Source: an uncultured Roseiflexaceae bacterium (lineage in GTDB: Bacteria > Chloroflexota > Chloroflexia > Chloroflexales > Roseiflexaceae). Taken from it: a DNA stretch of 40,019 nucleotides. Both the position numbers and the translations under genes were made by a program. The stretch's first letter is position 1, and each line of letters begins with the position of its first letter. The notes beneath the pieces are model-generated. The model was not told the DNA's origin. It was given only the letters and a program-made list of their open reading frames with translations, and searched no databases. The stretch covers positions 1 through 40,019 of the forward strand of contig CAISXI010000172.1 of NCBI GenBank assembly GCA_903889425.1, read 5' to 3'. Positions 15,382-38,714 of the stretch are shown here, in pieces.

Positions 15382-16104
15382 ATGCCGCAGCGTATCACTG
15401 ACAATTCACGCTTAAGCCGCAACGGGCATATTTTTGGCTCATTGCTGAGTGAGCTCCAACAGCGCATCCGCAAAGGAGAATGGCAACCTGGTAGCCATTT
15501 ACCCAGCATTACGCATTTGGCACACTCGTTTGGCGTGAGTACCGGGTCAGTGCGTGAGGCACTCCGTTCGCTCCAATCGCTGGGGATGGTGCGGATCGAA
15601 CACGGGCGGGGGGTAATTGTCATTAGTAATCAAATTGATGAGGATGTTCAACAACCCCAAAGCAACCCAACCATCGCCAATGTGGTGGCATTAGCTGAAG
15701 CGCGGCGACTCATCGAACCAGAGCTCGCCGCCCTGGCGGCCGAACGGGGTAGCGATATCGAATTAACTGAAGTCTTACAACTTGCCATTACCATGGAACA
15801 ACATGTCGTGGCGGGGCTTGATTTCGGCGAATCCGATACCGCATTCCATCATGCAATTGCAAATGCAGCCCATAACCCGGTCTTGAGTCAGATGATGCTC
15901 AGCATGCACGATCTTTTTTTGTTGAGTCGCCAATTTACCAGCAAAGAAGCAGGTATGACCGATCGCGCCGTGCGTTATCATCGCTTGATTGCCGATGCGA
16001 TTCAAACCCGTAATGCATCACAAGCGCGTTTGCTGATGCTGGCCCACATGAATGACGCCTTCGGCAGTGTGCTTGCGATTGAAGCCAAGCAGCAGACTCC
16101 GTAA
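15382..16104 (+). CDS. GntR-family regulator, FadR/FCD subfamily
   Basis: A 240-residue transcription factor. The N-terminal winged helix (about 15-85) reads LQQRIRKGEWQPGSHLPSIT then FGVSTGSVREALRSLQSLGMVRIEHGRGVIV, which is the GntR signature. The C-terminal all-helical FCD domain (about 100-235) includes EARRLIEPELAALAAERG and FHHAIANAAHNPVLSQMM, whose Asp/His residues usually bind a metal and a carboxylate effector. Regulators of this group commonly sense sugar acids (uronates, aldonates), which fits the genes downstream. It lies 20 nt after the dehydrogenase and 28 nt before the SDR gene, so it is co-transcribed and may autoregulate. It may also act on the minus-strand cluster; both ideas are inference. 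Confidence 0.88.
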   Translation: MPQRITDNSRLSRNGHIFGSLLSELQQRIRKGEWQPGSHLPSITHLAHSFGVSTGSVREALRSLQSLGMVRIEHGRGVIVISNQIDEDVQQPQSNPTIANVVALAEARRLIEPELAALAAERGSDIELTEVLQLAITMEQHVVAGLDFGESDTAFHHAIANAAHNPVLSQMMLSMHDLFLLSRQFTSKEAGMTDRAVRYHRLIADAIQTRNASQARLLMLAHMNDAFGSVLAIEAKQQTP

Positions 16105-16132
16105 TTTTTTTGTAGAGAGAGAGTAAGTTCCC

Positions 16133-16960
16133 ATGCGTATTGCAGTAACTGGGGGGAATGGCGACTTGGCCCGGGTGCTCATCCCCATGCTGGTGGCCCA
16201 AGGGCACGAGGTCAAAAGCCTCGACCGCACCTTGCCCCCCCGCACCAGTGACAATCCCCTTCCTGCCCATGCCGTGGTGGTTGACACCACCGATTATGGG
16301 CAAGTCGTGGCAGCCCTCGCTGGCTGTGACGGTATTATTCACCTCGCCGCCCATCGCTCACCCATGCAAGCCCCTGACCATGTCGTCTATCACGACAACA
16401 CCGTCAGTAGCTACCATGTCTTGCTCGCCGCCGAAACACTCGGCATCCGCAATGTCTGTATGGCCTCGAGCATCAACGCCATCGGGGGTGTGTTTAGCAA
16501 AGCTCCCCGCTACGACTACCTGCCGCTCGACGAACTCCACCCCTGCTATGCCGAAGATTCATATAGCCAATCAAAATGGGTGCTTGAACTCCAAGGTGAG
16601 GCCTTTGCCCGCCGTCGCACCGATGTCGCCATTAGTAGCCTGCGCTTCCACGGGATTACCTCCCGTGAAAACGCCATGACCTACTGGGCCCACAACGCCG
16701 CTGGTATCAAGCACCTCTGGGGCTATGTCGACCCCAAAGCCGCTGCCCGTGCCTGTATCGCCGCCATGAACGTCACCTGGACTGGCCACCACGTCTTTTA
16801 TATCGTCGCACCTGACGTCGCCAGTGATGTTGCCAGCGAAACCCTCGCCGCCACCAATTACCCCAACGCAACGCACAAACCCCAGCTCACCGGCACCATG
16901 GGATTTTTTGATTGTAGCAAAGCTGCCAATCTGCTTGGTTGGCACCATAACGAGGAGTAG
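16133..16960 (+). CDS. NAD-dependent SDR, uronate-dehydrogenase-like (copy 1)
   Basis: The 275-residue extended SDR has the nucleotide-binding GGNGDLA (7-13), an acidic residue ending strand 2 (Asp31), the IIHLAA strand, Ser112/Ser113 in MASSINAIGG and the catalytic Tyr144-x3-Lys148 in YSQSKW. Its size and the ASSINAIGG region resemble uronate dehydrogenase, which oxidises D-glucuronate or D-galacturonate to the aldaro-lactone with NAD. UDP-sugar epimerases are usually longer (310-350 residues). It is followed after only 5 nt by a galactonate-dehydratase-like enolase and later by a lactonase, which supports a role in oxidative sugar-acid breakdown. It is clearly paralogous to the minus-strand SDR at 25788-26609 (shared ASSINAIG, YDYLP..ELHP, SKW..ELQG). 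Substrate is inferred. Confidence 0.8.
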   Translation: MRIAVTGGNGDLARVLIPMLVAQGHEVKSLDRTLPPRTSDNPLPAHAVVVDTTDYGQVVAALAGCDGIIHLAAHRSPMQAPDHVVYHDNTVSSYHVLLAAETLGIRNVCMASSINAIGGVFSKAPRYDYLPLDELHPCYAEDSYSQSKWVLELQGEAFARRRTDVAISSLRFHGITSRENAMTYWAHNAAGIKHLWGYVDPKAAARACIAAMNVTWTGHHVFYIVAPDVASDVASETLAATNYPNATHKPQLTGTMGFFDCSKAANLLGWHHNEE

Positions 16961-16965
16961 TTTTC

Positions 16966-18138
16966 ATGAAAATCACTGACATCAAGTGTTATCCATTGTG
17001 GATTGGCACACGCAATCAGCTCGTCATCAAAATCGAAACCGATGAGGGCATTTATGGCCTTGGCGAATCAGGCCTCAGTGGCCGTGAATTGGCCGTCATG
17101 GGGGCAGTCAACCACTTCCGCGAGTTTTTGATTGGCCAAAACCCCATGCACATGGGACGCATCTGGCAAGAACTCTACCGCAGCCAATACTTCGAAGGTG
17201 GCCGCGTATTGACCGCCGCCCAAAGTGCCATTGACATTGCCTTGTATGACATCGCCGGCAAGGCCCTCGGCGTCCCCGTCCATCAACTCCTCGGTGGCCA
17301 ACACCGCAATCACATCCCCTGCTTTGTCACCACTAGTGGCTCGACTCCTGACGAAATGTTGGCGAGTGCCCAATTGCTCTGGGATCACGGCTGGCGCGTC
17401 ATCCGCACCGGCATGCTCTCCCCCCGCAACCACGGCGAGGGAATTTTCGAGCCCCGCGAGACGATTGGCATCACCGCCAAAACCCTCATCAAAATCCGCG
17501 AAACATTGGGCGATGAGCTGACGCTTGGCATCGACTACCATCACCGCTTATCCCTGGCCGAAACGGCGTCGTTCTGCCAGCGCATGCCCGTCGGCACCAT
17601 CGACTTCATCGAAGAACCAATGCGTGACGAAAGCCCCGAAGCCTACGAAGCCTTGCGCAAAATGACCCCCGTCCCCTTTGCCGTGGGCGAAGAATTCGCC
17701 AGCAAATGGCAATTTGCCCCCTTCATCGAACGCCATCTGACCGACTTTGCCCGCCTCGACATCTGTAATGTGGGCGGATTCACTGAATCAATGAAGGTCG
17801 CTGGGTGGGCCGAAACACACTATATTGACTTGATGCCCCACAACCCACTCGGGCCCGTCTGCACTGCCGCCACCATTCATCTCGCCGCTGCAGTACCGAA
17901 TTTTGCCTGGCTCGAAGTACGGGTATCTCCCAGTGAAAACCTCTACAAGGGCGACGGCATCAACGACGTCGATGTCATCTTCCCCGTCAATCCCAAGCTC
18001 AACGGTAACGCCTTTGATGTGCCCCAAGCCCCAGGCTTGGGCATCGAATTCGACGAAGAGACCGCCAAAAAACACACCTGGAAGTTCTGGGAAGCACCCC
18101 ACCTCCGTCGCCGTGATGGCTCAGTCACCAACTGGTAA
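16966..18138 (+). CDS. Enolase-superfamily sugar-acid dehydratase, galactonate-dehydratase-like
   Basis: The 390-residue protein starts MKITDIKCYPLWIG and has the MR-type N-terminal cap (about 1-115) and barrel. Visible metal ligands are Asp190 (GIDYHHR), Glu216 or 217 (FIEEPM) and Glu242 (VGEEF). The DxH pair Asp190/His192 and His292 in PHNPLGP match the Asp-x-His and His of D-galactonate dehydratase (DgoD). The second-strand KxK base motif of mandelate racemase is not seen (WRVIRTG), also as in the DgoD group. Such enzymes remove water from an aldonate to give a 2-keto-3-deoxy acid. GAGGAG lies 9 nt before the ATG, and the gene follows the SDR by 5 nt. The true substrate (galactonate, an aldarate or another acid) cannot be read from sequence. 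Confidence 0.8.
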   Translation: MKITDIKCYPLWIGTRNQLVIKIETDEGIYGLGESGLSGRELAVMGAVNHFREFLIGQNPMHMGRIWQELYRSQYFEGGRVLTAAQSAIDIALYDIAGKALGVPVHQLLGGQHRNHIPCFVTTSGSTPDEMLASAQLLWDHGWRVIRTGMLSPRNHGEGIFEPRETIGITAKTLIKIRETLGDELTLGIDYHHRLSLAETASFCQRMPVGTIDFIEEPMRDESPEAYEALRKMTPVPFAVGEEFASKWQFAPFIERHLTDFARLDICNVGGFTESMKVAGWAETHYIDLMPHNPLGPVCTAATIHLAAAVPNFAWLEVRVSPSENLYKGDGINDVDVIFPVNPKLNGNAFDVPQAPGLGIEFDEETAKKHTWKFWEAPHLRRRDGSVTNW

Positions 18139-18148
18139 TTGGCATACG

Positions 18149-18178
18149 CACCCGAGCGCACATAGGTTCGCTCGGGTG
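18149..18178. terminator. Intercistronic 10-bp hairpin
   Basis: CACCCGAGCG (18149-18158) pairs with CGCTCGGGTG (18169-18178) around a 10-nt loop, in the 60-nt gap before the lactonase gene. No T-run is present, so it is more likely an mRNA processing or attenuation element than a full terminator. Confidence 0.45.
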
Positions 18179-18198
18179 TAGCACTAAAGGAACACCTC

Positions 18199-19215
18199 AT
18201 GTCACAAATTCTCGTTGGTAGCTACAACACGCCAGATCAACCAGGCGTGGCCATTTTGGAAGTCGATAGCAGTGGTACATATCGGGTTATCAGCCAATTA
18301 ACCGGCATCGAAAATCCCTCGTTCATGACCCAGCACGGCGCACACATCTATGCCGTCAGCGAAACTGGCACTAATGGTGGCGTCGTTGCCATAACCCGCC
18401 AAGGCACTACCCTCAGCCACGGCATCCGCCGTCCGAGTGGCGGTGGCTGGCCATGTCATGTACGCGTGAGTGCTGATGGCCGATTTGTCGTCGCCACCAA
18501 CTACGGCAGCGGCACGGTGGCGTTGTTGCACATCGAAAGCGATGGATCGCTCACCGGCCTCAATGATTTGGTAGCTCATAGTGGCAGTGGACCCCATGCC
18601 GGCCGCCAAGGTGAGCCCCATGCCCATTCTGCCATCATCACTCCTGATGGGGCCTATGTAATTGCGGCTGATTTGGGCACCGATGAGTTAGTGTTTTATA
18701 CCATCAACACCCAAACCAATCAACTCGTACGCACCCATACCGTCAATGCTCCTGCAGGTAACGGCCCACGCCATACTATTTTTCATGCCAATGGCACCAT
18801 ATTGTACGTGGCCAACGAATTAGCCTGTAGCGTGTCGGTGTTTGGGTACGCCAGCGGCACACTTACCCACATCGCCGATCATGCAACCTTCACCGGCACC
18901 AACCACGACTTTACCGTGGCCGACATTCATATCAGCCCTGACCAGCAATTCCTCTACTGCACCACCCGCACTGATAACACCATCGCTGCCTATCGCATCT
19001 TGGCTGACGGGAATCTCACGCGGATTGGCGTCTATCGTTGTGGGGGGGCCTGGCCGCGCAATTTTGCCATTGCCCCAGACGGTTCTTATATCCTCGTTGC
19101 CTGCCAACACGACAATCACATCGCCGTATTGCCCCGCGATACCACCACTGGAGTCGTTGGCGCACGGGTGGCAACCATTCCCATGCCCAATGTCTCTTTT
19201 GTTGAATTTATATAA
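18199..19215 (+). CDS. Lactonase, 6-phosphogluconolactonase (7-bladed propeller) family
   Basis: This 338-residue protein starts SQILVGSYNTPDQPGVAIL, the usual N-terminus of the cytosolic beta-propeller lactonases related to YbhE/Pgl. Family patterns include VVATNYGSGTVALLHI, HAHSAIITPDGAYVIAADLGTDEL, GNGPRHTIFHANGTILYVANE and GGAWPRNFAIAPDGSYILVACQ. It hydrolyses a sugar lactone to the open acid. The SDR at 16133 is expected to make an aldaro-lactone, so this enzyme would be the next step, although carboxymuconolactone or 6-phosphogluconolactone remain possible substrates. AAAGGA lies 9 nt before the ATG. It is the last gene of the operon and is followed by a strong terminator. Confidence 0.85.
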   Translation: MSQILVGSYNTPDQPGVAILEVDSSGTYRVISQLTGIENPSFMTQHGAHIYAVSETGTNGGVVAITRQGTTLSHGIRRPSGGGWPCHVRVSADGRFVVATNYGSGTVALLHIESDGSLTGLNDLVAHSGSGPHAGRQGEPHAHSAIITPDGAYVIAADLGTDELVFYTINTQTNQLVRTHTVNAPAGNGPRHTIFHANGTILYVANELACSVSVFGYASGTLTHIADHATFTGTNHDFTVADIHISPDQQFLYCTTRTDNTIAAYRILADGNLTRIGVYRCGGAWPRNFAIAPDGSYILVACQHDNHIAVLPRDTTTGVVGARVATIPMPNVSFVEFI

Positions 19216-22276: not shown

Positions 22277-23533
22277 TTACGGCGTCCAGATGGTACCATC
22301 GGGCCAGCGACTCTGGGTCCACTCCACCACCTTGGTGTCGACGGGGTACTTGGCAGCCTTTTGCTCGTCAAAATCGACACCCCAGCCTGGTTTGTCGTTG
22401 ACATAGACATAGCCACCATGTACTTCGGGACAACCGGGGAAGACTTCATACAAATTTGGCCCAAAGTGAATCACTTCTTGGATGCCAAAATTGCGGCTCG
22501 ACAAGTCGAGATGCACGTTGGCGGCATGCCCAATTGGTGATACGTCACCAGGACCATGCCAGGCCGTACGAATCCCGAATTGCTCAGCAAACGCAGCCAA
22601 CTTGCGGGCCGGCGTCACACCACCAATGGCCGATACGTGTGAGCGGATGAAGTCGATCAACTGCTCGCTAATCAACGTCTTCCATTCGGCGGCGTTCACG
22701 TGCAATTCACCCATGGCGATGGGGGTCGCACATTGCTCACGCAAGCGGCGGAACCATTCGATTTGGTCGGGGGCAAATGGATCTTCGAGGAAGAAGAGCC
22801 GGTAGGGCTCAAGCGCCTTACCCATCCGTACCGCATCAATCGGCGCAATCCGCTCGTGGATGTCGTGGAGCAAAAAGAGGTCGTAGCCGATTTTGTTACG
22901 AATATAATCAAATAGCGGCGGAATCGAGCGGGCATACACATCAGGCTGGTAGTAGGCACCGGGGAAGGTTGATTCGAGGTTGTCCATCGAGCGCATACGA
23001 TGGGTGGCCTGTGGCGCATCTTTACTGGGGACGCTGTTTTGTTTGGTGATGTCTTGGATACGACCGCCGTAGCCACCCATTTGACAGCGCACGGCGAGGG
23101 CGCCACTCTCTTGGTACTTGATGACGTTTTCGAGCACTTCTTGGTGGTCACGGCCATCGGCGTGGCGATATATCATGGCACCTTCGCGACACTTGCCGCC
23201 CCAGAGTTGATAAACGGGCATGTTGGCGATTTTGCCCTTGATATCCCACAAGGCCATGTCGACACCGCTGATGGCGTTGTTGAGCACGGGGCCATTACGC
23301 CAGTAGGAATTGACCATCATCAATTGCCACATATCTTCGCTGTTGCGCGGATCGCGACCAACTAGCAACGGCTCGAGATAATCTTCGACCGCTTTGACGA
23401 CCAACGTGGCCCGTTGGGTAAACGTGGCACAACCCAAGCCAAACAAGCCATCTTGGTCGGTTTCGACCTTGACAACGACGACCCCAATGCCGTCAGGGGC
23501 GGTCAAAAACGCCCGTACACGCGTGATTTTCAT
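22277..23533 (-). CDS. Enolase-superfamily ManD/RspA-type dehydratase
   Basis: The 418-residue protein belongs to the D-mannonate dehydratase (ManD, formerly RspA) subgroup: IYRHADGRD, HDIHERIAPIDAVRMGKALE and SPIGHAANVHLDLSSRNFGIQE are its marks. Metal ligands are Asp224, Glu250 and Glu276, with His226, Arg149 and His326 as catalytic residues by alignment to known ManD proteins. After His326 comes Gly-Pro (HGPGDVSP); from memory, Ala at this place goes with efficient mannonate dehydratases and Pro with weak or D-gluconate-acting ones, so gluconate-like acids are possible substrates. The start at 23533 is chosen because GGAG lies 8 nt upstream and MKITRVRAF is the family N-terminus. It is the last gene of the minus-strand cluster, separated from the previous one by a hairpin. 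Confidence 0.85.
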   Translation of the reverse strand: MKITRVRAFLTAPDGIGVVVVKVETDQDGLFGLGCATFTQRATLVVKAVEDYLEPLLVGRDPRNSEDMWQLMMVNSYWRNGPVLNNAISGVDMALWDIKGKIANMPVYQLWGGKCREGAMIYRHADGRDHQEVLENVIKYQESGALAVRCQMGGYGGRIQDITKQNSVPSKDAPQATHRMRSMDNLESTFPGAYYQPDVYARSIPPLFDYIRNKIGYDLFLLHDIHERIAPIDAVRMGKALEPYRLFFLEDPFAPDQIEWFRRLREQCATPIAMGELHVNAAEWKTLISEQLIDFIRSHVSAIGGVTPARKLAAFAEQFGIRTAWHGPGDVSPIGHAANVHLDLSSRNFGIQEVIHFGPNLYEVFPGCPEVHGGYVYVNDKPGWGVDFDEQKAAKYPVDTKVVEWTQSRWPDGTIWTP

Positions 23534-23619: not shown

Positions 23620-24927
23620 TTACGACCAGAGCCGATCCCAGCTTTTGGCTTCGTCCCATTCGGGGGTTGGCTCAAAGAATCCGCTGCCCTTGACCAAATG
23701 TTCCTTGACCACGTCGAGATTGACTTCAAAGCCCAAACCGGGGGTATGGGGCACTGCAATGTAGCCGTTTTGGATGACGGGGCCACTGCGCCCGGTAATG
23801 GTGATAAAGTCGCTCCAGAAGGGTTCTTCGGAGAAGTGGTGTTCGAGGGCGATGAAGTTTTCGGTGGCAGCGGCACAATGCACACTCGCCATGGTGCTGA
23901 TGGGCGTACCGGCCATGTGCATCGCCATGCTAATCCCCCGCTCAGCGGCGTAATCGCCGATGCGCTTGGTTTCCATGATGCCACCACTCGTGGCCATGTC
24001 AGGGTGAATGATATTGACGCCACGGGCATCGATGAGCGGTTTAAAGCCATCGAGGGCGTAGATATCTTCACCGGTACAGACGGGCGTGTGGAGTTCACGC
24101 TCGAGTTGTACCCATTGATCGGTGAATTGCCACGGCACCAGGTCTTCGAGCCACGCCAAATTGTAGGGCTCGAGCGCTTTACCAAGGCGAATACAATCGT
24201 CGATGCCGATATGACCAAAGTGGTCAGCGGCAATTGGCACTTCGTAGCCTACCGTCTCACGCACTTGGGACACATATTCCACAATCATGTCCAACCCTTT
24301 GGGGGTGATACGGACGTGCGTGAAGGGGTGTTGCAAGGTGTGCAAGTTGAGCATTTTGTCGAAGTGCTTGTCGCTCCCGCCGGGCAACATGCCATCGGGA
24401 TAGGTCAACGCACCGGGGATGCCGATGAGGGGTTGGATGCCTACGTCCATTTTGAGCATGGTATAGCCCCACGAGATGCGCTCTTGGAGTTGTTTGCCCA
24501 TCGACACACCATCGGGTTCGTTGGGGGTATCGCAGTACATGCGCACGCGGTCGCGGTATTGACCACCGGCGAGGGCAAAGGCGGGTACGCCATAGGCTTT
24601 GCCGGCCAGGTCCATCAAGGCCATTTCGACACCGGACACGCCGCCACCCTGGCGACCGTGATGGCCGAACTGCTTGATTTTGCGGAACAAACGATCGACG
24701 TTGCAGGGATTTTCGCCCAACAAGCGGCTTTTGAGCATCAAAGCGTATTTGGCGGCGGCCAAGTCACGGACTTCGCCCCAACCGCTAATCCCTTGGTTGG
24801 TATCGATGCGGATGATGCTAAAGTGCCAGTGGTCCCAGCCCACCGTGGCAATCCGCATATCGGTGATTTTGAGGTCGCTCGGGTTTGATGAGCGCTGAAT
24901 GTTATCTTCAGGGCGCGTTCCGCTCAT
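23620..24927 (-). CDS. Enolase-superfamily MR-type sugar-acid dehydratase (substrate unknown)
   Basis: A 435-residue mandelate-racemase/muconate-lactonising-type protein. It has Lys159 in MLKMDVG at the end of barrel strand 2, metal ligands Asp235 (AADHFG), Glu261 (LEDL) and Glu287 (TGEDIY), and the His337 region (MAMHMAG) with Asp310 (IIHPDMATSGG), i.e. the Lys plus His/Asp acid-base set of the MR group. A long insert (about 165-205) distinguishes it from DgoD. The ATG at 24927 overlaps the stop of the upstream aldolase-like gene as ATGA, implying translational coupling; an ATG at 24858 nearer the canonical N-terminus has no better RBS. Its operon mates make an aldonate or aldarate the likely substrate, but I cannot assign which. 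Confidence 0.8.
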   Translation of the reverse strand: MSGTRPEDNIQRSSNPSDLKITDMRIATVGWDHWHFSIIRIDTNQGISGWGEVRDLAAAKYALMLKSRLLGENPCNVDRLFRKIKQFGHHGRQGGGVSGVEMALMDLAGKAYGVPAFALAGGQYRDRVRMYCDTPNEPDGVSMGKQLQERISWGYTMLKMDVGIQPLIGIPGALTYPDGMLPGGSDKHFDKMLNLHTLQHPFTHVRITPKGLDMIVEYVSQVRETVGYEVPIAADHFGHIGIDDCIRLGKALEPYNLAWLEDLVPWQFTDQWVQLERELHTPVCTGEDIYALDGFKPLIDARGVNIIHPDMATSGGIMETKRIGDYAAERGISMAMHMAGTPISTMASVHCAAATENFIALEHHFSEEPFWSDFITITGRSGPVIQNGYIAVPHTPGLGFEVNLDVVKEHLVKGSGFFEPTPEWDEAKSWDRLWS

Positions 24928-25751
24928 TTGTTGTTCGCTTTCTTCCAGGCGGTGTAGTCGGCTTCGATGTCTTCGCGCCAATTTTGCACGTCGATCTCGC
25001 CGCTGGTGTATTTGCCTTCACCAATCCGCATTTTGCCGAATTCATCACGCACGCGGGTGTTTTCGCTCTCTTCAACGACTTCTTTCACCAAGTGCGGTGG
25101 GATAACGATGATACCGGTGGCGGTGCCCAAAATCACGTCGCCTGGCAAAATGGTAATGCCGTCGATGCGCACGGGAATGTTGATACCAGACAAGGTGACA
25201 TCGGCAATGGCGGTTGGATCAAAGCCCCGCACATAGAAGTTGACATCGTCGAGGGTGACCAGGCCGGCCAAGTCACGGACGCCACCATCAATCACAGCGC
25301 CGGCGTGGGTGCGTTTGGCCACTGCAGTACCCAAGTTGTCACCAACCAAGGTGCCGTCTTTGATTTTGCCAAACAAATCACACACCATCACATCGTTGCG
25401 CTCGAGTTGTTCGATAATCCACGAATTTTGGCCACCGATTTTGCCACGCCCCGCAGCAATCCCGGAATCTTGGATGACCTTGTGGAAGTCGGGGCGATGA
25501 GGAATAAAGGCGGCAGTGACAGCCCGGCCGACGGTAACTTTGCCGGGGTGGGTCTCTTTCCAGTTACCAGCGAATTGCAAGTTGTAGCCATGGCGACGCA
25601 TCGTACCCCAGGCCTCTTCGGTGGTGACCAGTTTCATGCGCTCGATCAAATCATCGGGCACTTTGGGGCGACCATCGGCAAAGCGCTCGAAAGGATTTTG
25701 GGCGGTCAGGGCAATCATTGCCTCACGAGTTGGTTGTACATGCCACGTCAT
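24924..25751 (-). CDS. RraA-like / HMG-CHA aldolase family protein
   Basis: The 275-residue protein has the RraA/'dimethylmenaquinone methyltransferase-like' fold, with the family region GDNLGTAVAKRTHAGAVIDG followed by GVRD. Members that are true class II pyruvate aldolases (4-hydroxy-4-methyl-2-oxoglutarate/4-carboxy-4-hydroxy-2-oxoadipate aldolase) carry Asp-x20-Arg-Asp, and exactly that spacing is present here; the RNase E inhibitor RraA of enterobacteria is shorter (about 160 residues). This copy has extra N-terminal (about 60 residues) and C-terminal (about 45 residues) segments. Lying between an SDR and an enolase dehydratase, and overlapping the latter by ATGA, it is a good candidate to cleave the keto-deoxy acid they produce. 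That role is inference. AAAGGA lies 9 nt before the ATG. Confidence 0.78.
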   Translation of the reverse strand: MTWHVQPTREAMIALTAQNPFERFADGRPKVPDDLIERMKLVTTEEAWGTMRRHGYNLQFAGNWKETHPGKVTVGRAVTAAFIPHRPDFHKVIQDSGIAAGRGKIGGQNSWIIEQLERNDVMVCDLFGKIKDGTLVGDNLGTAVAKRTHAGAVIDGGVRDLAGLVTLDDVNFYVRGFDPTAIADVTLSGINIPVRIDGITILPGDVILGTATGIIVIPPHLVKEVVEESENTRVRDEFGKMRIGEGKYTSGEIDVQNWREDIEADYTAWKKANNK

Positions 25752-25787: not shown

Positions 25788-26609
25788 TTAATGCGTCCAG
25801 CCCAACAAGCGTTGCGCCTTCGTGCAGTCGTACATTCCCTCGTTGGGTGCCAATTCCTTGGTCACTGTCACTTGCGGGAACCATTGGGCAATCAAATCGC
25901 TGGTCGATTCGGCCATCACCGTGGTCGGCGACACAATATAAAAGGCTTCGTGGCCAATATATTGCGCATCGACAATCGCCATACAGGCGCGGGCAGCCGA
26001 CTCACCGAGCGTATACGCCCAAAGTTGCTTGGCATTCATGTCGAAGTTTTTGTTGGCGCGTTCTTGCGCCAATGCCAAATTTTCGACCACCCAGTGGAAG
26101 CGCAACGAGGCAATCGTCATGTCTTCGTAGCGCCGTGCAATCGAATCACCTTGGAGCTCGCAAATCCACTTCGACAAGCTGTAGGGGTCTTCGCTATAGG
26201 TAGGGTGCAATTCATTGACCGGCAAATAATCATATTTGGGCCAACGACTATACACCGCGCCGATCGCGTTGATACTTGATGCCTGCGCTACCCGTTTGAT
26301 GCCACAATTCGCCGCCGCCAACAAGGCATTGTAACTACTCGTGACATTGTTGTTGTGCACCACATGGTCAAGATGACCACGGGGCGCTGGGATAGCCGCC
26401 AAGTGGATGAGCACTTCATAGCCATTGATGGCATCATAAAATGCTTGGTAATCAGACAATTCGGCACTCACAAAGTCAACACTGTCAGGCACACTCCCTG
26501 CAGTCGGTGCCACCCGATCAATGTTGCGTACCGTATGCCCTTGCGCCACGGCCATCCGTAACACATGCTTACCGACGCTCCCACTCCCACCAGTTACCGC
26601 AATACGCAC
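25788..26609 (-). CDS. NAD-dependent SDR, uronate-dehydrogenase-like (copy 2)
   Basis: The 273-residue SDR has GGSGSVGKHV (7-16) for NAD, Asp31 at the end of strand 2, LIHLAA, Ser in ASSINAIGA and the YxxxK pair in YSLSKW. It is a diverged paralogue of the plus-strand SDR at 16133, sharing KYDYLP..ELHP, SKW..ELQGD and FYIVSP. Uronate dehydrogenase (uronate to aldaro-lactone, NAD-linked) is the best-fitting activity, given UxuA upstream and enolase dehydratases downstream. The start is GTG at 26609, with AAGGAG 6 nt upstream, and the mature frame MRIAVTGG fits the family. It follows UxuA after a 114-nt gap that holds a purine-rich heptamer repeat, and precedes the RraA-like gene by 36 nt. Confidence 0.8.
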   Translation of the reverse strand: MRIAVTGGSGSVGKHVLRMAVAQGHTVRNIDRVAPTAGSVPDSVDFVSAELSDYQAFYDAINGYEVLIHLAAIPAPRGHLDHVVHNNNVTSSYNALLAAANCGIKRVAQASSINAIGAVYSRWPKYDYLPVNELHPTYSEDPYSLSKWICELQGDSIARRYEDMTIASLRFHWVVENLALAQERANKNFDMNAKQLWAYTLGESAARACMAIVDAQYIGHEAFYIVSPTTVMAESTSDLIAQWFPQVTVTKELAPNEGMYDCTKAQRLLGWTH

Positions 26610-26723: not shown

Positions 26724-27701
26724 TTATTTCTGACCGTACACTACTTCACGCAAACCACGGATATAGCCAATGGCATACAAGCGTCCAAACGCCGAATAAC
26801 CGGCGTTTTCGTTGCTATCACCGGCCACCGTCGGCACATGGTCGGGGCGCAATACCCCTTCAAAGCCAATATCTTTGTAGGCCTGCATACAAGCCGTCAT
26901 ATCGGTTTTGCCAGCATCATGCCACGACTCTTCAAACTTGTCTTTGGTGCCAATCACATCGCGGAAGTGCACAAAGAAGAGTTTGTTCTGCTTGCCGAAT
27001 TGGTGAATCACACTGGGCAAATCGTCGGTCATCAAGGTGAAATTGCCTTGGCACATGGTGATGCCATTGACCGGGCTCGGAATCATGTCAACCAAGCGCT
27101 GGAAGTTTTCGACGGTGCGCATAATCCGGCCGACACCACGAATCGGTGAACGGGGGGGATCATCGGGGTGCATCGCCAATTTAACGCCGGCTTTTTCGGC
27201 CACAGGCACGATCCGCTTCATGAAGTATTCGAGGTTGGTCCACAATTCTTCTTCGCTAATCGGGCCGTTTTCGGTGTTGGGGGCGCCTTCCATCAAGGCG
27301 TTATCATAACTCGTCACCACACTACCACCACGTGAAGGGGTGGTGGTTGAGGTACGCATCCAATTGAAGTCAGTCATCCATTCGTAACACCACACCGGGA
27401 TCTTGAGGCGGCCCATGTTTTCGATCAGAGTACAAGCTACGTCGATTTCGGCATCACGACCGGGCAAACCACGCTTTGCCAAATTCAACGGTGGGCGGGC
27501 TTCGATGACTTCGAGGGCAAAGCCGGCTTCTTCGTAGCGTTGCTTCATGCGCAACAACGGCAGATAGTCACAGGCCCCATCCGTCCCATTGAATGCCTCG
27601 CCATACGGCAAGCCACCAACGGCATAATCAATCCCACACTGCTTCGACAACGTCCACAACATTGATGGTGTGGGTGGCAAAGCTTCGGCAATCTTAATCA
27701 T
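26724..27701 (-). CDS. uxuA: Mannonate dehydratase, UxuA family
   Basis: A 325-residue protein starting MIKIAEALPPTPSMLWTLSKQ. It has the xylose-isomerase-like barrel of UxuA, with MHPDDPPRSPIRGVGRIM, the Cys-bearing strand ITMCQGNF, FFVHFRDV (metal His) and RPDHVP. UxuA converts D-mannonate to 2-keto-3-deoxy-D-gluconate and needs Mn or Fe(II). It is shorter than the E. coli enzyme (394 residues), as in many non-enteric forms. AAAGGAG lies 8 nt before the ATG, and it follows the mutarotase-like gene by 11 nt. UxuB (fructuronate reductase) and UxuC (uronate isomerase), the usual partners, are not in the window. A ManD-type enolase in the same cluster could be a second, unrelated route to the same product. 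Confidence 0.88.
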   Translation of the reverse strand: MIKIAEALPPTPSMLWTLSKQCGIDYAVGGLPYGEAFNGTDGACDYLPLLRMKQRYEEAGFALEVIEARPPLNLAKRGLPGRDAEIDVACTLIENMGRLKIPVWCYEWMTDFNWMRTSTTTPSRGGSVVTSYDNALMEGAPNTENGPISEEELWTNLEYFMKRIVPVAEKAGVKLAMHPDDPPRSPIRGVGRIMRTVENFQRLVDMIPSPVNGITMCQGNFTLMTDDLPSVIHQFGKQNKLFFVHFRDVIGTKDKFEESWHDAGKTDMTACMQAYKDIGFEGVLRPDHVPTVAGDSNENAGYSAFGRLYAIGYIRGLREVVYGQK

Positions 27702-27712
27702 GAGATACTCCT

Positions 27713-28675
27713 TTATTCTGCATCTAGTTGCACTTGTACCGACCAGCTCCGCTGCTGGCCCGGAGGCAACGTGGCATACGTAGTAGTTCGACTGTAGGCA
27801 TCGCTCAAGCGGTCATAGACGCCAATGGCTGGCTCAATACCCATATTGTAATTGGGACTCTCACCATCGTTGCTCCATGCTCCGGCATTGATAAACACCG
27901 CCAGCTGTGGGATTTCGGCGCTATCCCAGCGCATCGTCAGCCGCCCATTGGCGGCCTGCAAGGCCACCCAACCACTGGGCAAGACATCGCTATATAACTT
28001 GGCCGTCATGGCACTCGTTACCTCAGGAAGGTGTGTCAAATCCAACACGCGTTGGTCGGGCAACACAATCGCCTCTGGAGCATCACTGACCAATTCGCCC
28101 TGGTGATTGGCATGCAAAAACGTGGTGCCCGCCGGGGTATACAAGGCCATGCCTGGCTCCAATGATACCAGCGGGTGCGCACACCAAATCCACTGCAAAT
28201 CGGCTTCGCCGTGATTTTTGACACGGTACGTCACCTCGATGGCAGCCTCAGCGCCGATTTCGATTGAGCGCATAAACGTATACGGCAAGGTCAAGCCTTC
28301 CCACACACAGGTATACACCACCGCATCGTCTTGGACCAGCCACGTCACCGTCGGTGTCTGACACCACAATTCACCATGGTCAGCGAGCGGGGTACCCTGC
28401 CACGGGGCGGCCGGGTAATCACACGGGCCGACAGTGGGGAAACATTCGTCCCAGCCACCGGTGTCAGCCACCGCCACATAATTGGCAGTCGATGGCACCT
28501 GTTGGTAGGGCATACGGGGATGGCGCCACAGCCATTCTCGACCGGTACGCCGATCCGTCAACCGTGTCATTTTGCCACCCAACACAGGGATATATTCGCA
28601 TTCAATCACAGCGTTTTGCACCACGACACGGGTAAACCCATCATCGCCGTGATATTCGTGTTTGTGAATGGTCAT
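27713..28675 (-). CDS. Galactose-mutarotase-fold protein (aldose-1-epimerase-like)
   Basis: The 320-residue protein resembles the aldose-1-epimerase/mutarotase superfamily: VLGGKMTRLTDRRTGREWLW near residue 35, DTGGWDECFPTV (about 70-82), the central YRVKNHGEADLQWIWCAHP with a conserved His, and NMGIEPAIG near the end. No signal peptide. Such proteins interconvert sugar anomers or bind sugars; in this operon it could supply the anomer that the uronate-dehydrogenase-like SDR needs (inference). Its ATG overlaps the stop of the CBM9-like gene (ATGA at 28672-28675) with GGAG upstream, so the two are coupled in translation. The exact family (DUF4432, DUF5107 or aldose epimerase) is not certain. 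Confidence 0.7.
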   Translation of the reverse strand: MTIHKHEYHGDDGFTRVVVQNAVIECEYIPVLGGKMTRLTDRRTGREWLWRHPRMPYQQVPSTANYVAVADTGGWDECFPTVGPCDYPAAPWQGTPLADHGELWCQTPTVTWLVQDDAVVYTCVWEGLTLPYTFMRSIEIGAEAAIEVTYRVKNHGEADLQWIWCAHPLVSLEPGMALYTPAGTTFLHANHQGELVSDAPEAIVLPDQRVLDLTHLPEVTSAMTAKLYSDVLPSGWVALQAANGRLTMRWDSAEIPQLAVFINAGAWSNDGESPNYNMGIEPAIGVYDRLSDAYSRTTTYATLPPGQQRSWSVQVQLDAE

Positions 28676-29517
28676 GGTTGCTCCATCACATCGTCGTCAC
28701 TAAAGACGATTTTGGTGAAGCGCTCAGGGATATGATTGTCGTTTGAACCAACCGCACCCCAACTCCAGGCTGCCGGTTGTGACACCACTTGCCCGGCCAG
28801 TTCCAAGCGCTGAAAGCGCCCAAAAAAGATGTTCCATTCGTCGCCCGCCTTGGGGGGGAGCGATCGCCCTTGACCGAGGTGCTTCATGCCACTCCACGGG
28901 AAGGCCAACTCCACCCGCCAGCCTTTGTCAACGACAGCTGGGTTATTGATTTGGCCATCGACAAACACGGCACTTTGTAGACCAGGCATGTCCCAATCGC
29001 GGTAGGCCCAGCGCAGGCCACGGGGGTGGCTGCCCTGCCAAAAGTGGTGGCCGACCCGGTCATGGTTGCCCCCAAACAAAATCGCAGCATGGTCGTGGAC
29101 ATCGAATTCGGGGGTGTCCCAGTAGCTTCCTTTGCGCCAGGCATCTTGCCAGACAAAAAAGACTTCGTAGATGGTACCAAGGGCATTGATTTCGAATTCG
29201 TAGTAACAATCGCCGCCATCAATAAAGACCTCGACGTCGTTTTCCAAAAAAACTAACGCATCGCGTGTGGCTTGGGTGGCCGTTACAAACGGCTCTTCGA
29301 CCCAAAATCCCACATACAATGCGTCATCATCCCAGACCACGGCACACTGGGTATCAAATGGACCAGGCCCTCCACTAATCATGTCGACAAACCGCGGCGA
29401 ACGCACTGCGCGTTGCCATACCGGGCTCGCCAACCGCCCATCGAGAGCTGGTTTTTGCGAGGTGCGCTTGCAGATATACTGCATCTGCTGATCTGGAGTC
29501 CAATCGGAGACAATCAT
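28672..29517 (-). CDS. Cytosolic CBM9-like carbohydrate-binding protein
   Basis: A 281-residue protein made almost wholly of a CBM9/DOMON-like beta-sandwich: KPALDGRLASPVWQRAVRS, CAVVWDDDALYVGFWVEEP, FLENDVEVFIDGGDCYYEFEINALGTIYEVFF, and FPWSGMKHLGQGRSLPPKAGDEWNIFFGR. Family 9 modules bind the ends of xylan or cellulose chains and are usually parts of secreted enzymes; here the protein is free-standing with no signal peptide. The start at 29517 is chosen because AAGGA lies 7 nt upstream; the ATG at 29532 falls directly after the T-run of a terminator. Its role is unknown; binding of imported oligosaccharides, or an unrecognised catalytic role in sugar-acid breakdown, are both possible. It overlaps the mutarotase-like gene by 4 nt. 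Confidence 0.78.
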   Translation of the reverse strand: MIVSDWTPDQQMQYICKRTSQKPALDGRLASPVWQRAVRSPRFVDMISGGPGPFDTQCAVVWDDDALYVGFWVEEPFVTATQATRDALVFLENDVEVFIDGGDCYYEFEINALGTIYEVFFVWQDAWRKGSYWDTPEFDVHDHAAILFGGNHDRVGHHFWQGSHPRGLRWAYRDWDMPGLQSAVFVDGQINNPAVVDKGWRVELAFPWSGMKHLGQGRSLPPKAGDEWNIFFGRFQRLELAGQVVSQPAAWSWGAVGSNDNHIPERFTKIVFSDDDVMEQP

Positions 29518-29533
29518 TGTCGTCCTTTTCATG

Positions 29534-29562
29534 AAAAAGGGGCGTACCACCCGGCACGCCCC
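29534..29562 (-). terminator. Rho-independent terminator/attenuator after the ABC importer genes
   Basis: Read on the minus strand, GGGGCGT (from 29562) pairs with ACGCCCC (to 29539) over a 10-nt loop, followed by TTTTTC. It lies 14 nt past the stop of the second ATPase gene and just upstream of the CBM9-like gene, so it may lower expression of the catabolic genes relative to the importer. Confidence 0.75.
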
Positions 29563-29575
29563 TCCACCATTCCGC

Positions 29576-30592
29576 CTATACCGGCAATACGTCAGTCAAC
29601 TGTGTGGCCGGCAATACCGGGTTGTTGTCGTACAACACGCACGATGCCACCTGCGTTTCGGCAACGCGGTACAAGGGTGGTGGGGTGTGTAGACAATTGT
29701 CTTTGACATGTGGGCAACGTGCCGCAAACCGGCAACCCTTGCCACCCTTATCGGTGGCATCGGATTCTTTGACCATCATACCGTCACTGCCCCAGCGGCG
29801 GTCGACATCGGGCCACGGAATCGAGTCAATCAACAAGCGGGTATAGGGGTGTTGAGGTTTCTGGATGACATTATCAATGTCACCCGCTTCCATCACACCA
29901 CCCTTGTACAGCACCACAATCGAATTGGCGACGTGGTAGGCGGTGGTCAAGTCGTGGGTGATATAGATAATCGACACGCCATGATCACGATGCAGGCCAC
30001 GCAACGACTCGAGGATATTGGCACGCAGTGATGCATCGACCATCGACACTGGTTCGTCAGCCACGAGCACCCTAGGCTTGAGCAACAAGGCCCGTGCCAC
30101 GTTGATGCGTTGGCGCTGACCACCCGACAATTGGTGCGGGAAGCGGCCGAGGATGTCTTCGGGGCGTAAACCGACCGAACTCAACGCTTCTTCCATTTTG
30201 TTGCGGGCATCAGCTTTTGACTTCGCCAATTTGAATTTTTCAATTGGCACCGTCAACAAATGGTCAACCGTATAAAACGGATTGAACACCGCAAACGGAT
30301 CTTGGAAGACGGCTTGGACTTCGCGGCGATAATTCAAGCGATCATCGCCACGCAACTTGCTGATGTTTTTGCCTTTGTAGAGGATTTCGCCCTTGGTGGG
30401 GTCGATAAATCCCAGCAACAACATCGCCAAGGTGGTCTTGCCGCTGCCACTCTCACCGGCCACCGTCATAATGGTGGGCTCGTCTTCTTTGAGTGTCATC
30501 GAAAAATCTGCCAAGGCAGTCGTCCCAGCCTCAGCAAAATACCCACGGGTGTAGGTTTTGGTTACATTACGAAACTCGAGCAAATTCGCCAC
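29576..30592 (-). CDS. Opp/Dpp-type ABC transporter ATPase (DppF/OppF-like)
   Basis: The 338-residue ATPase has Walker A GESGSGKTT, Q-loop region VQAVFQDPFAVF, signature LSGGQRQRINVARAL, Walker B VLVADEP with VSMVDA as D-loop, and H-loop YITHDL. The C-terminal extension has spaced Cys residues (CRFAARCPHVKDNC and a later Cys), the oligopeptide-transporter C-terminal motif that can hold an Fe-S cluster. It starts at GTG 30592, two bases after the stop of the partner ATPase, with GAAGGGG 7 nt upstream; a start further up at 30622 would overlap the partner and lacks an RBS. It drives import with the partner ATPase through the two permeases encoded upstream. Substrate is probably an oligosaccharide or glycoside rather than a peptide, judged from operon content. 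Confidence 0.9.
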   Translation of the reverse strand: MANLLEFRNVTKTYTRGYFAEAGTTALADFSMTLKEDEPTIMTVAGESGSGKTTLAMLLLGFIDPTKGEILYKGKNISKLRGDDRLNYRREVQAVFQDPFAVFNPFYTVDHLLTVPIEKFKLAKSKADARNKMEEALSSVGLRPEDILGRFPHQLSGGQRQRINVARALLLKPRVLVADEPVSMVDASLRANILESLRGLHRDHGVSIIYITHDLTTAYHVANSIVVLYKGGVMEAGDIDNVIQKPQHPYTRLLIDSIPWPDVDRRWGSDGMMVKESDATDKGGKGCRFAARCPHVKDNCLHTPPPLYRVAETQVASCVLYDNNPVLPATQLTDVLPV

Positions 30593-30594
30593 GG

Positions 30595-31560
30595 CTATGC
30601 CCCTTCCGTATAGAGATGACACGCAACCAAGCGATTACCTTCGTATTCTTTTACGTCGGGAACCGTTGTTTTGCAGACATCCATTGCTTGTGGACAACGG
30701 GGGTGGAATGCACAACCGTTGGGAATCCGCAACAGTGATGGTGCTAAACCAGCAATCCCTTGGAAGACCCCTTTGTTTGACAAGTTGGGCAAACTTTTGA
30801 TGAGTGCTTGCGCATAGGGATGCATCGGCTTGCTAAACATGTCACGCACCGTGCTGACCTCGGTCAAGCGCCCGGCATACATCACTGCCACTTTATCGAC
30901 AAATTGTGCCATCAAGCCCATGTCGTGCCCGATCAGGATGACGGCAGTGCCCATTTCTTTTTGGACCCGGTCGATGGTTTCCATCACTTGGCGTTGCGTC
31001 ACCACGTCAAGGGCACTGGTGGGCTCGTCGGCGATGATGACCTGTGGTTTGAGCAAAATCCCGATAGCGATACAGACGCGTTGCTTCATGCCACCGCTCA
31101 ACTCGTGCGCATACATCTGAAAGACGTTGCGCTTGAGGTCGACCGATTCGAGCGACTGCATACATTGCTCGGTCATGTCATCTTTTGACATATTGGGAAT
31201 GTGGGCTTTGATGGCATCAACCATCTGGGCGCCAATCCGCATGACCGGATTGAGTGAATTCATGGCACCTTGGGGAATATAGGCGATGCGGCTCAAGCGG
31301 GCTAGGCGCATTTCTTCGTCGTTGAGTGAAATCAAATCAACGCCACCGACCGTCACGCTGCCGCTTTCGATGCGGCCTGGTGCTTTGATCATGCGCATCA
31401 TGGCTAAAGCCATGGTGCTTTTGCCAGAGCCCGATTCGCCTACGAGGCCCAGTTTTTCGCCGGCATTCAGATCCAGATTCACCCGATTCAAGGCAGTTGC
31501 GCGACCCAAATCGGTGTAGTATGACACTTGGAGGTCACGTATTTGCAAAATTGGCGTCAT
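30595..31560 (-). CDS. Opp/Dpp-type ABC transporter ATPase (DppD/OppD-like)
   Basis: A 321-residue ATPase with Walker A GESGSGKST, Q-loop IAYIPQGAMNSLNPVM, signature LSGGMKQRVCIA, Walker B VIIADEPTSALDV and H-loop LIGHDMG. The C-terminal motif CAFHPRCPQAMDVC plus a later Cys is the oligopeptide-transporter extension. It follows the second permease by 4 nt with GGAG before the ATG, and is followed by the second ATPase after 2 nt, so the five importer genes form one unit. It forms the cytoplasmic nucleotide-binding heterodimer with that second ATPase. Confidence 0.9.
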   Translation of the reverse strand: MTPILQIRDLQVSYYTDLGRATALNRVNLDLNAGEKLGLVGESGSGKSTMALAMMRMIKAPGRIESGSVTVGGVDLISLNDEEMRLARLSRIAYIPQGAMNSLNPVMRIGAQMVDAIKAHIPNMSKDDMTEQCMQSLESVDLKRNVFQMYAHELSGGMKQRVCIAIGILLKPQVIIADEPTSALDVVTQRQVMETIDRVQKEMGTAVILIGHDMGLMAQFVDKVAVMYAGRLTEVSTVRDMFSKPMHPYAQALIKSLPNLSNKGVFQGIAGLAPSLLRIPNGCAFHPRCPQAMDVCKTTVPDVKEYEGNRLVACHLYTEGA

Positions 31561-31564
31561 GCAC

Positions 31565-32491
31565 TTACTCCGTTCGCCGTACGCGAGGGTTGGCCAATTC
31601 GTCCAAACCCATGTTGATTAGTGCCAAGGCACTCAAAATTAGCACCATGGCTGTTGCCGGCCAAATTGGCCACCACCACCAACCATTGAAGAAGGCACCT
31701 TGGGATTGTGCACCCCAAATAATGTTGCCCAACAACGGCTCACGCAATGGGCCCAAGCCGACAATGGCGAGGTAGAACGACGCAAACACGCTCCCAAACA
31801 CCTGACTCACAAAGGCTGCCGCAATAAACGGCAACAAATTGGGCAGAATTTCACCGAAAATAATCCCGCCATTACCGACGCCCGACAACTTGGCAACAGA
31901 CACAAATTGGCGCTCTTTCATCGACAAGACTTGCGAGCGGATGACGAGGGTCGGTCCCATCCAGGCTAGCATTACCACGATCCACGCCATCGTAAAGATA
32001 GTCACATCGCGTTTATCAAGCGATGACGCAATAATAATTTGGATCATAAATACCGGTATCGGCGTCAGGATCTGACAGATACCTTTGATTACCGTATCAA
32101 ACACACCACCAAAATAGGCCGAGGTAAAGCCCAATACCACACCAATCATGGTGCCAGCAGCACCAGCCAACACGCCAATCAAGGCAGTTTGCCACATGCC
32201 GGTGACCATCACGGCGTGCATGTCACGACCAAAGAAATCCGAACCCATGGGGTACTTGCCGGGCCAGTTAGGCGTACTAAAGTCCAAAATCCCGGGTGGT
32301 TGCTTGGGCTTGACTGCCAGCGGATAGGCCGCTTTGGGCTTGATCTGGAAGAAGCCAATCGCCGTGAACAGAATCAAAAAGAGCAAAATCCCCAACCCAT
32401 ACGCCAAGCTCTTGTTCCGGCGCAAATACCCGCCAAACAGTTTCAGTCGGCTCGGTTGAATCGGCGGAGCCGTCGTTGTCAACGTTGTCAT
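31565..32491 (-). CDS. Opp/Dpp-type ABC transporter permease (DppC-like)
   Basis: The 308-residue membrane protein has an N-terminal OppC_N segment (RRNKSLAYGLGILLFLILF as first helix), the loop STPNWPGKYPMGSDFFGRDM typical of DppC (family pattern PLGTDxxGRD), and the BPD-type EAA region KLSGVGNGGIIFGEILPNLL. About six helices are visible. It forms the channel with the DppB-like partner. The start at 32491 has AAGGAG 6 nt upstream, overlapping the stop of the dppB-like gene; a longer start at 32527 would lie inside that gene without an RBS. Confidence 0.9.
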   Translation of the reverse strand: MTTLTTTAPPIQPSRLKLFGGYLRRNKSLAYGLGILLFLILFTAIGFFQIKPKAAYPLAVKPKQPPGILDFSTPNWPGKYPMGSDFFGRDMHAVMVTGMWQTALIGVLAGAAGTMIGVVLGFTSAYFGGVFDTVIKGICQILTPIPVFMIQIIIASSLDKRDVTIFTMAWIVVMLAWMGPTLVIRSQVLSMKERQFVSVAKLSGVGNGGIIFGEILPNLLPFIAAAFVSQVFGSVFASFYLAIVGLGPLREPLLGNIIWGAQSQGAFFNGWWWWPIWPATAMVLILSALALINMGLDELANPRVRRTE

Positions 32492-32501
32492 TCCACGCTC
32501 C

Positions 32502-33500
32502 TTAATCTTGTTTGATACGGGGATCAAGCAACGGATACAAGAATTCTACTAGTACCATCAATGTCGCCACCGACATAGTAATAAACAACACAATGCCGTA
32601 AATTACCAAAAAGTCGTTGGCACGAATGGCTTCACCAAGCTTTGAACCGAGACCAGGCAAGGCATACAGTGATTCAACCACTGAACCAGACGTAATCAAA
32701 CTCCCCAACGCCAAGGCAAACCCCGTTACTTGGGGTAACAAGGCATTGCGGAGATAGTAATTACGAAAAATAGTGCGGCCATCGAGGCCTTTGTGCTCTG
32801 CAAAATTGACATAGTCTTCACCTTGAATGGTGATACCCATACCACGCATCGATAATACCCAGCCCCCTACAGAGCCGAGAATCATCGAAATCGCCGGTAA
32901 TACTTGGTGCCACATCACATTCAACATAAACGAGAATGTCCAATCTGGCGCAATACCAGTTGAATATGCTTGTCCCAGCGGGAATAATTTCAATTTAAAT
33001 GCCAAGAAAAAGAGCAAGAAAATCGCCAACAATACCGGAGGCACCCCAGTAAACATGATAAATGGTGTCGCAACCGCACGTAACCACCCCGGAGACCGCG
33101 GCCAGGCCGCTACCGCACCCAGTAAATTACCAATCACAAACGACAAAATCGCCGAAACAAACAACAACGAAATCGTCCATGGCAGTGAGTCATAGATAAT
33201 GCTAGTTACTGTCTTAGGGAATTTATTTAACGACACCCCTAAGTCAAACTGTGCAATACTGCCAATATAGTCAGTGTATTGTTCTAACAGTGGCTTATCT
33301 AAGCCAAATTTTTTACTGTACGATGCAACTATTACTTCAAGATCGCTGGCCGAAAAGCCACCGGTACGAGCAAGCTCTGCAAAACGTTCACGAATCGGAT
33401 TACGATCTGACATACGCGGAATAAAAAACGTAATAGTGGATGCAGCCCATACCACCATTATCAAAAAGGCTACACGCCGAAGGATTAATCGCAGTTTCAC
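32502..33500 (-). CDS. Opp/Dpp-type ABC transporter permease (DppB-like)
   Basis: The 332-residue permease begins KLRLILRRVAFLIMVVWAAST, the usual first helix of DppB, and has an extracytoplasmic loop of about 65 residues with RNPIRERF and FGLDKPLLEQYTDY, then five further helices and the EAA-type region AEHKGLDGRTIFRNYYLRNAL. The C-terminus ends VLVEFLYPLLDPRIKQD as in the family (YALLDPRI). GTG start at 33500 with AGGAGAG 7 nt upstream. It follows the solute-binding protein after a 157-nt gap that holds a hairpin, which normally sets a higher mRNA level for the binding protein than for the permeases. Confidence 0.9.
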   Translation of the reverse strand: MKLRLILRRVAFLIMVVWAASTITFFIPRMSDRNPIRERFAELARTGGFSASDLEVIVASYSKKFGLDKPLLEQYTDYIGSIAQFDLGVSLNKFPKTVTSIIYDSLPWTISLLFVSAILSFVIGNLLGAVAAWPRSPGWLRAVATPFIMFTGVPPVLLAIFLLFFLAFKLKLFPLGQAYSTGIAPDWTFSFMLNVMWHQVLPAISMILGSVGGWVLSMRGMGITIQGEDYVNFAEHKGLDGRTIFRNYYLRNALLPQVTGFALALGSLITSGSVVESLYALPGLGSKLGEAIRANDFLVIYGIVLFITMSVATLMVLVEFLYPLLDPRIKQD

Positions 33501-35517: not shown

Positions 35518-35657
35518 GTTTGTCTCCTTCGACATTAATCTATGTCATATCTCCATGTAATCCTCAATTTTCATCACCCCACCACCATCTTGATATTCCC
35601 AATGACAAAACTGCCACTGCAATTACCACATATGCGGTTGAACGAACGAAACTGAGA

Positions 35658-36370: not shown

Positions 36371-36372
36371 CT

Positions 36373-38607: not shown

Positions 38608-38655
38608 GGAGGCCTGCTCCTTGTGGGTTGTTTGGTGACTATCCCTACTATACAC

Positions 38656-38692
38656 AAAAAACCACTGCACGGTGTAATACACTGTGCAGTGG
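38656..38692 (-). terminator. Rho-independent terminator after lipoprotein gene
   Basis: CCACTGCACGGTGT (38662-38675) pairs with 38679-38692 (14 bp, one G-U), loop AAT, and the minus-strand transcript then reads TTTTTT. It closes the lipoprotein gene ending at 38715 and insulates the dehydratase operon. Confidence 0.85.
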
Positions 38693-38714
38693 CATGAGCC
38701 ATCCAACAACGTTA

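Follow-up and report, generated by a model that had tools for sequence, protein, structure and literature searches.

An RraA-fold protein, most likely a lyase, paired with an enolase-superfamily dehydratase in Roseiflexaceae

We found that an RraA-like gene from an uncultured freshwater Roseiflexaceae bacterium forms a conserved pair with a gene for an enolase-superfamily dehydratase, and that its product is most likely a lyase. The gene (24924-25751, minus strand) lies in a stretch of 40,019 nucleotides, here called the window, and encodes a protein of 275 amino acids. Pyruvate-forming aldolase chemistry is the leading reading of its function, a plausible one drawn from the fold, the motif and the order of the genes. 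The enzyme probably acts on a 2-keto-3-deoxy acid. We give slightly less than an even chance to the more specific proposal that it carries out retro-aldol cleavage of the 2-keto-3-deoxy acid made by the neighboring dehydratase (ENL_B), yielding pyruvate and an aldehyde.

The motif and the gene overlap

The protein, read from its ATG start, contains GDNLG (residues 137-141) and GVRD (residues 157-160), which together give Asp138-x20-Arg159-Asp160. Counted from the gene start at 25751, the motif from its first to its last Asp (residues 138-160) is encoded at 25272-25340 on the minus strand. A sequence-only reading of this DNA had pointed out that these residues are spaced as in HMG/CHA aldolases. 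The spacing is exact, and Asp138, Arg159, Asp160 and Asp236 align to D102, R123, D124 and E199 of the HMG/CHA aldolase of P. putida. The spacing alone is weak evidence, because at least one D-x20-R-D pattern was present in 1764 of 20000 composition-preserving shuffles of the protein. As judged from aligned relatives, the evidence for the motif is its conservation, rather than its spacing. Asp138 is kept in 29 of the 30 members of the clade that contains the protein (the query clade) and Arg159-Asp160 in all 30; position 236 is Asp in 29 and Glu in the remaining one. These counts are based on the same 30 rows that were used for the tree, from which a fragment (L038) and near-identical rows (L002, L005, L006, L009 and L020) were left out.

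The stop codon of the RraA-like gene overlaps the start codon of ENL_B as ATGA. This confirms the proposed link to a dehydratase gene, and the same overlap is present in 9 of 13 related loci. The protein had also been described as about 100 residues longer than a typical RraA. That is correct relative to RraA of E. coli, which has 161 amino acids (from its coordinates), 114 fewer than the protein in the window. As a sign of novelty, length did not hold up, since long RraA forms are common: LigK proteins have 223-224 amino acids, 21 plasmid-borne relatives other than LigK have 234-265, and the PDB chain 5x15 has 270.

Family and fold

The protein matched the Pfam RraA-like family (PF03737) at 73.4 bits (cut-off 24.5), and it is the only match to that family in its genome (540 contigs). 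Its best NCBIfam match was the PRK08245 subfamily (NF006093), with 119 bits against a cut-off of 208. It is therefore outside this subfamily as curated. Two plasmid proteins, from L090 and L088, scored 335 and 324.5 on the same model. The equivalog models for RraA were not reached: the protein scored 24 bits on RraA_entero (cut-off 241.25) and 38.6 on PRK09372 (cut-off 136).

An AlphaFold2 model built from 12 sequences had a mean pLDDT of 72.9, with values below 50 in the active-site stretches 127-138 and 156-185. The best matches of this model in the PDB were RraAS2 (5x15, Z 15.5), 3k4i (15.1) and 5ir2 (14.6), followed by the HMG/CHA aldolase 3noj (13.4) and yeast YER010C (13.0); short RraA proteins scored 9.2 or less. 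Coming from a predicted structure, these matches support the RraA fold, not the chemistry. In the tree, the query clade is to one side of a branch with support 95/99. Its relation to LigK and to a group of araD-linked proteins is unsure because of long branches.

The operon around the gene

The sequence-only reading placed the gene in a sugar-acid operon, and the neighboring genes bear this out. Three enolase-superfamily genes, a UxuA-family gene, a GntR/FCD regulator, a lactonase-family gene and an ABC transporter surround it. On the minus strand, the order is a solute-binding protein of family 5 (33658-35535; PF00496, 172.6 bits), two ABC transporter ATPases and two permeases (29576-33500; from reading of the open reading frames, and in an order conserved in related loci), a CBM9-like protein (28672-29550; a weak Pfam match, at or just under the cut-off), a protein of 320 amino acids (27713-28675), a UxuA-family (mannonate dehydratase) protein (26724-27701), an NAD-dependent epimerase/dehydratase-family oxidoreductase (25788-26609), the RraA-like protein, ENL_B and ENL_ManD. 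The 320-amino-acid protein had no Pfam or NCBIfam match, is conserved in the operon and resembles aldose epimerases by eye. The UxuA-family protein matched PF03786 at 274.9 bits and passed the cut-off of PRK03906 (205.9 bits; cut-off 191). Facing this operon, on the plus strand at 15382-19215, are the GntR/FCD regulator, a second epimerase-family oxidoreductase, the third enolase-superfamily gene and the lactonase-family gene (7-bladed).

ENL_B (23620-24939, minus strand; 439 amino acids) belongs to the mandelate racemase/muconate lactonizing group of the enolase superfamily (PF13378, 163.6 bits) and is presumably an acid-sugar dehydratase; in a profile search it was under every NCBIfam cut-off. 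ENL_ManD (22277-23533, minus strand) is in the D-mannonate dehydratase subgroup of that superfamily. It scored 411.8 bits on the ManD model, under the cut-off of 550, and its closest PDB entries were 3tw9, 4ihc and 3t6c, one of which is titled 'putative ManD family dehydratase'. The oxidoreductase matched PF01370 at 69 bits and had weak matches in the PDB, for example to the uronate dehydrogenase 3rft (E 0.00066). Known uronate dehydrogenases were matched too weakly for us to accept that identity. Judging by the UxuA- and epimerase-family genes, the sugar acids may be hexonates or hexuronates.

Two further loci flank these genes. Upstream of the ABC transporter operon there are genes for a B12-type diol/glycerol dehydratase (35960-38709, minus strand), in which the large and medium subunit domains (PF02286, PF02288) are fused in one frame of 778 amino acids, with the small subunit (PF02287) coming after it. 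Just ahead of the GntR regulator is a gene for a glucose/sorbosone dehydrogenase-like protein (13703-15361, plus strand; PF07995, 33 bits), which carries, close to its start, a long repeat rich in Ala, Thr and Glu.

Conservation of the gene pair

We searched 30 clade loci with the proteins of the window for neighbors of the RraA-like gene. In 11 of the 30, representing six lineages, ENL_B was the next gene downstream and had the same orientation: six loci of the Roseiflexaceae type plus L010, L068, L069, L070 and L080. The pair is also present in L006 and L007, which were outside the 30-locus search. RraA and ENL_B diverge in step, with identities to the window (RraA/ENL_B, in percent) of 99/99, 96/94, 88/89, 74/73, 71/70, 69/72, 59/56 and 52/51. 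In L080 the pair occurs without the other operon genes, and in L074 a UxuA-family gene (75%) begins 3 bases after RraA. In 18 of the 30 loci, some with flanks of less than 1 kb on one side, no dehydratase of the kinds in the window was found. None of the sugar-acid genes of the window was found in the Acidobacteriota loci L013-L016 or in L011-L012. Among 400 Chloroflexota genomes, 165 had an RraA-like match and 19, including the genome of the window, had a member of the close clade (E ≤7.5e-75); genome G329 had a fragment in addition.

Some clade members have neighbors unrelated to sugar acids, for example a creatininase-family gene or a gene of glycoside hydrolase family 2. In L077 (6283-7086), a creatininase-family gene is directly ahead of the RraA-like gene, a context unlike that of sugar acids, and in L079 (7306-8109) a related gene has the same place. 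The clade members from Bryobacterales (L013, 7935-8813; L014, 4008-4862; L015, 7956-8813; L016, 7959-8813) begin with a hydrophobic stretch that by eye resembles a signal peptide. They may therefore be exported.

Plasmid-borne relatives

The protein by itself matched 752 places in 589 plasmid records, and database entries for its relatives bear the name 'ribonuclease activity regulator RraA'. From the 589 records we chose 23 regions by hand, about one per genus and not at random. In these regions, alphaproteobacterial plasmids included, long RraA genes often adjoin or are near genes for acid-sugar dehydratases. MR/MLE proteins were encoded near the long RraA in L088, L089 and L101, a glucarate-dehydratase-family protein in L095, and L-arabinonate dehydratase in L091, L092, L093, L094, L099, L102, L105 and L107. 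In L090 an aldehyde dehydrogenase gene adjoins RraA and a ManD gene is farther off; L096 has an aldehyde dehydrogenase in the cluster and L098 a DHDPS-family gene. No acid-sugar dehydratase was found within the stretch viewed in L097, L100, L103, L104, L106 or L110. In L108 and L109 the gene is a LigK gene and is part of a protocatechuate cluster.

Four clusters from Rhodobacterales plasmids (L090, L096, L099 and L102) combine a long RraA gene with a gene for an NADP aldehyde dehydrogenase, and two of the four also have genes for L-arabinonate dehydratase and a DHDPS-family protein. The four aldehyde dehydrogenases are 65-70% identical to one another. No NCBIfam model was a good fit for the two that were scored, and the label KGSA dehydrogenase was not supported. 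In L092 and L093, a gene of the nuclear transport factor 2 family follows the long RraA, and mannonate and L-arabinonate dehydratase genes are close by.

A possible reaction after ENL_B

The stable pairing of the RraA-like gene with that of an enolase-superfamily dehydratase points to the product of ENL_B as the substrate. ENL_B would dehydrate an acid sugar, and the resulting 2-keto-3-deoxy acid would pass to the RraA-like enzyme. There, the keto-acid end of the compound would be bound at a divalent metal held, directly or via water, by Asp160 and Asp138. Arg159 would hold the pyruvate part, and Asp236 would be supplied by the neighboring subunit. Cleavage would then leave a metal-bound pyruvate enolate and an aldehyde. 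That is, we infer the metal use, the retro-aldol chemistry and the products from comparison with the HMG/CHA aldolase.

The aldolase idea of the sequence-only reading keeps its motif, its coupling to a dehydratase and its role in the catabolism of keto-deoxy acids. There was no specific support for the part that named tartronate semialdehyde as a product. That reading also did not weigh a precedent within the same fold, the dehydratase/decarboxylase FlDet (PMC8563752), which is taken up below.

The genome contains genes of the KDPG-aldolase, HpcH/HpaI and DHDPS families, which could perform the keto-deoxy acid step instead. The KDPG-aldolase-family gene has a PfkB-like neighbor (by eye). There is also a match to a MOFRL-type glycerate kinase, an enzyme that would fit a route via glyceraldehyde or tartronate semialdehyde. 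Two aldehyde dehydrogenases have as their best models those for KGSA and 2,5-dioxovalerate dehydrogenases, below the cut-offs (599 vs 770 and 577 vs 750 bits). Several end routes are therefore possible, given the glycerate kinase, KDPG-aldolase and KGSA-dehydrogenase-like genes. Genome searches for the NAD_binding_2, DHDPS, KDPG aldolase, HpcH/HpaI and glycerate kinase families did not discriminate between these routes.

Position 138 and alternative functions

The alternative that survives best, although we consider it unlikely, is that the protein is a dehydratase or dehydratase/decarboxylase similar to FlDet. It would convert a 2-keto-3-deoxy acid or aldarate to alpha-ketoglutaric semialdehyde, or to a keto acid related to it, and the route would be completed by an aldehyde dehydrogenase whose gene is in another part of the genome. 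According to its description (PMC8563752), FlDet of Flavobacterium sp. UMI-01 is an RraA-like protein of 237 amino acids that makes alpha-ketoglutaric semialdehyde from 2-keto-3-deoxy-glucarate. The two aldehyde dehydrogenases with KGSA-type best matches would fit such a route, and so would the plasmids, in which RraA genes often come after L-arabinonate dehydratase and in four cases are near an NADP aldehyde dehydrogenase. However, searches of the window and of L002-L016 gave no aldehyde dehydrogenase relative. FlDet is also described in that paper as unaffected by EDTA, which speaks against this alternative, although Mg, Co and Ni activated it.

Position 138 also bears on this alternative. 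The residue is acidic in 29 of 30 members of the query clade, in 13 of 13 other Chloroflexota rows and in 8 of 8 of a set of MR/MLE-linked, Martelella, Bradyrhizobium, Streptomyces and LigK proteins. In contrast, it is acidic in only 1 of 15 members of the araD-linked group and is Ser in 9 of them. These groups were drawn after the residues had been seen, and for that reason the tree matters. In the tree, a modestly supported branch (78/78) sets the araD-linked group apart, if L102, its one Asp row, is not counted. The published N-terminus of FlDet, of which 19 residues could be compared, scored best against two araD-linked members; L046, an Asp-type protein from Chloroflexota, tied with the second, and the protein in the window ranked 24th of 67 rows. 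The placing of FlDet in the araD-linked group is therefore likely, not proven. A plasmid search with the FlDet-like L090 protein gave no Bacteroidota among the best 60 of 524 records. A rule linking motif and partner without exception was rejected, since L095 combines Ser with a glucarate-dehydratase-family partner and L102 combines Asp with an araD partner. The lack of an acidic residue 138 in 14 of the 15 plasmid proteins with FlDet-like N-termini favors an aldolase for the protein in the window, without deciding it.

It is considerably less probable that the protein decarboxylates oxaloacetate or a similar keto acid, or is a keto-acid tautomerase or hydrolase, at another step of the same pathway. 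The enolate chemistry of the RraA fold also decarboxylates oxaloacetate (compare the names of the LigK models), and the clade members beside creatininase-family or glycoside hydrolase family 2 genes are consistent with such a function. The stable pairing with the dehydratase speaks against it. Regulation of ribonuclease activity, which would agree with the database name of the relatives and with RraAS2 as the best fold match, is very improbable because no match to RNase E/G (PF10150) was found in the genome (~90% complete; a control scan detected this family in 6 of 14 genomes) and because the gene belongs to a catabolic operon in which it overlaps the start codon of the next gene.

Significance

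Aldol cleavage of a keto-deoxy acid remains the reading that we prefer. In a literature search that covered few subscription papers, we found no RraA-fold sugar-acid aldolase. The finding is not categorically new, because FlDet already places the RraA fold in keto-deoxy acid catabolism. A broader proposal, which we regard as doubtful at present, is that the mainly Chloroflexota clade of RraA proteins and the dehydratase that diverges with it make up a two-gene catabolic unit. The RraA protein would be a metal-dependent 2-keto-3-deoxy-sugar-acid aldolase, and the first aldolase with the RraA fold to be placed in the breakdown of carbohydrates. At position 138, an acidic residue would then be the mark of aldol cleavage, and a change to another residue, in most cases Ser, that of dehydration of the FlDet type.

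Many long RraA-like proteins are named as regulators of ribonuclease activity, yet their genes are located in sugar-acid operons. If the clade does consist of keto-deoxy acid aldolases, a block of misnamed genes would gain a function, one more fold would join the unrelated folds used for the keto-deoxy acid step, and position 138 would offer a direct test of aldol cleavage versus dehydration in the RraA fold.

Comparison with known systems

The HMG/CHA aldolase (LigK/PcmE; P. putida F1, PDB 3noj) shares with the protein in the window the RraA fold, the Asp-x20-Arg-Asp motif and an acidic residue at the position of E199. PMC5065237 states that most homologs have one of two metal-binding motifs and are likely class II pyruvate aldolases. 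The two proteins differ at the phosphate and substrate site. By alignment, none of seven residues (R40, N71, H75, G144, T145, K147 and R195; those tested for phosphate activation are taken from the same paper) is kept, and the score on the LigK equivalog, 69.6 bits, is far under the cut-off of 304.5. On these grounds we rejected identity with the HMG/CHA aldolase. No protocatechuate genes were recognized in the window.

RraAS2 of Streptomyces coelicolor (270 amino acids) is similar in length and aligns to residues 32-270. It differs in being titled an inhibitor of RNase ES, and its identity to the protein is ~20%. The long plasmid-borne RraA proteins of PRK08245 align over nearly the full length, but the protein is under their curated cut-off. 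FlDet is likewise a long RraA-like protein in keto-deoxy acid catabolism. It differs in that the proteins best matching the 19 compared residues of its N-terminus mostly lack an acidic residue 138, and in that the partner here is an enolase-superfamily dehydratase.

GarL and GudL are both 5-keto-4-deoxyglucarate aldolases, GudL being annotated as DapA-like, and are 7% identical to each other, according to PMC11775122. They are unrelated to the RraA-like protein. If the leading reading is right, all three would take over from an acid-sugar dehydratase with a reaction of the same type.
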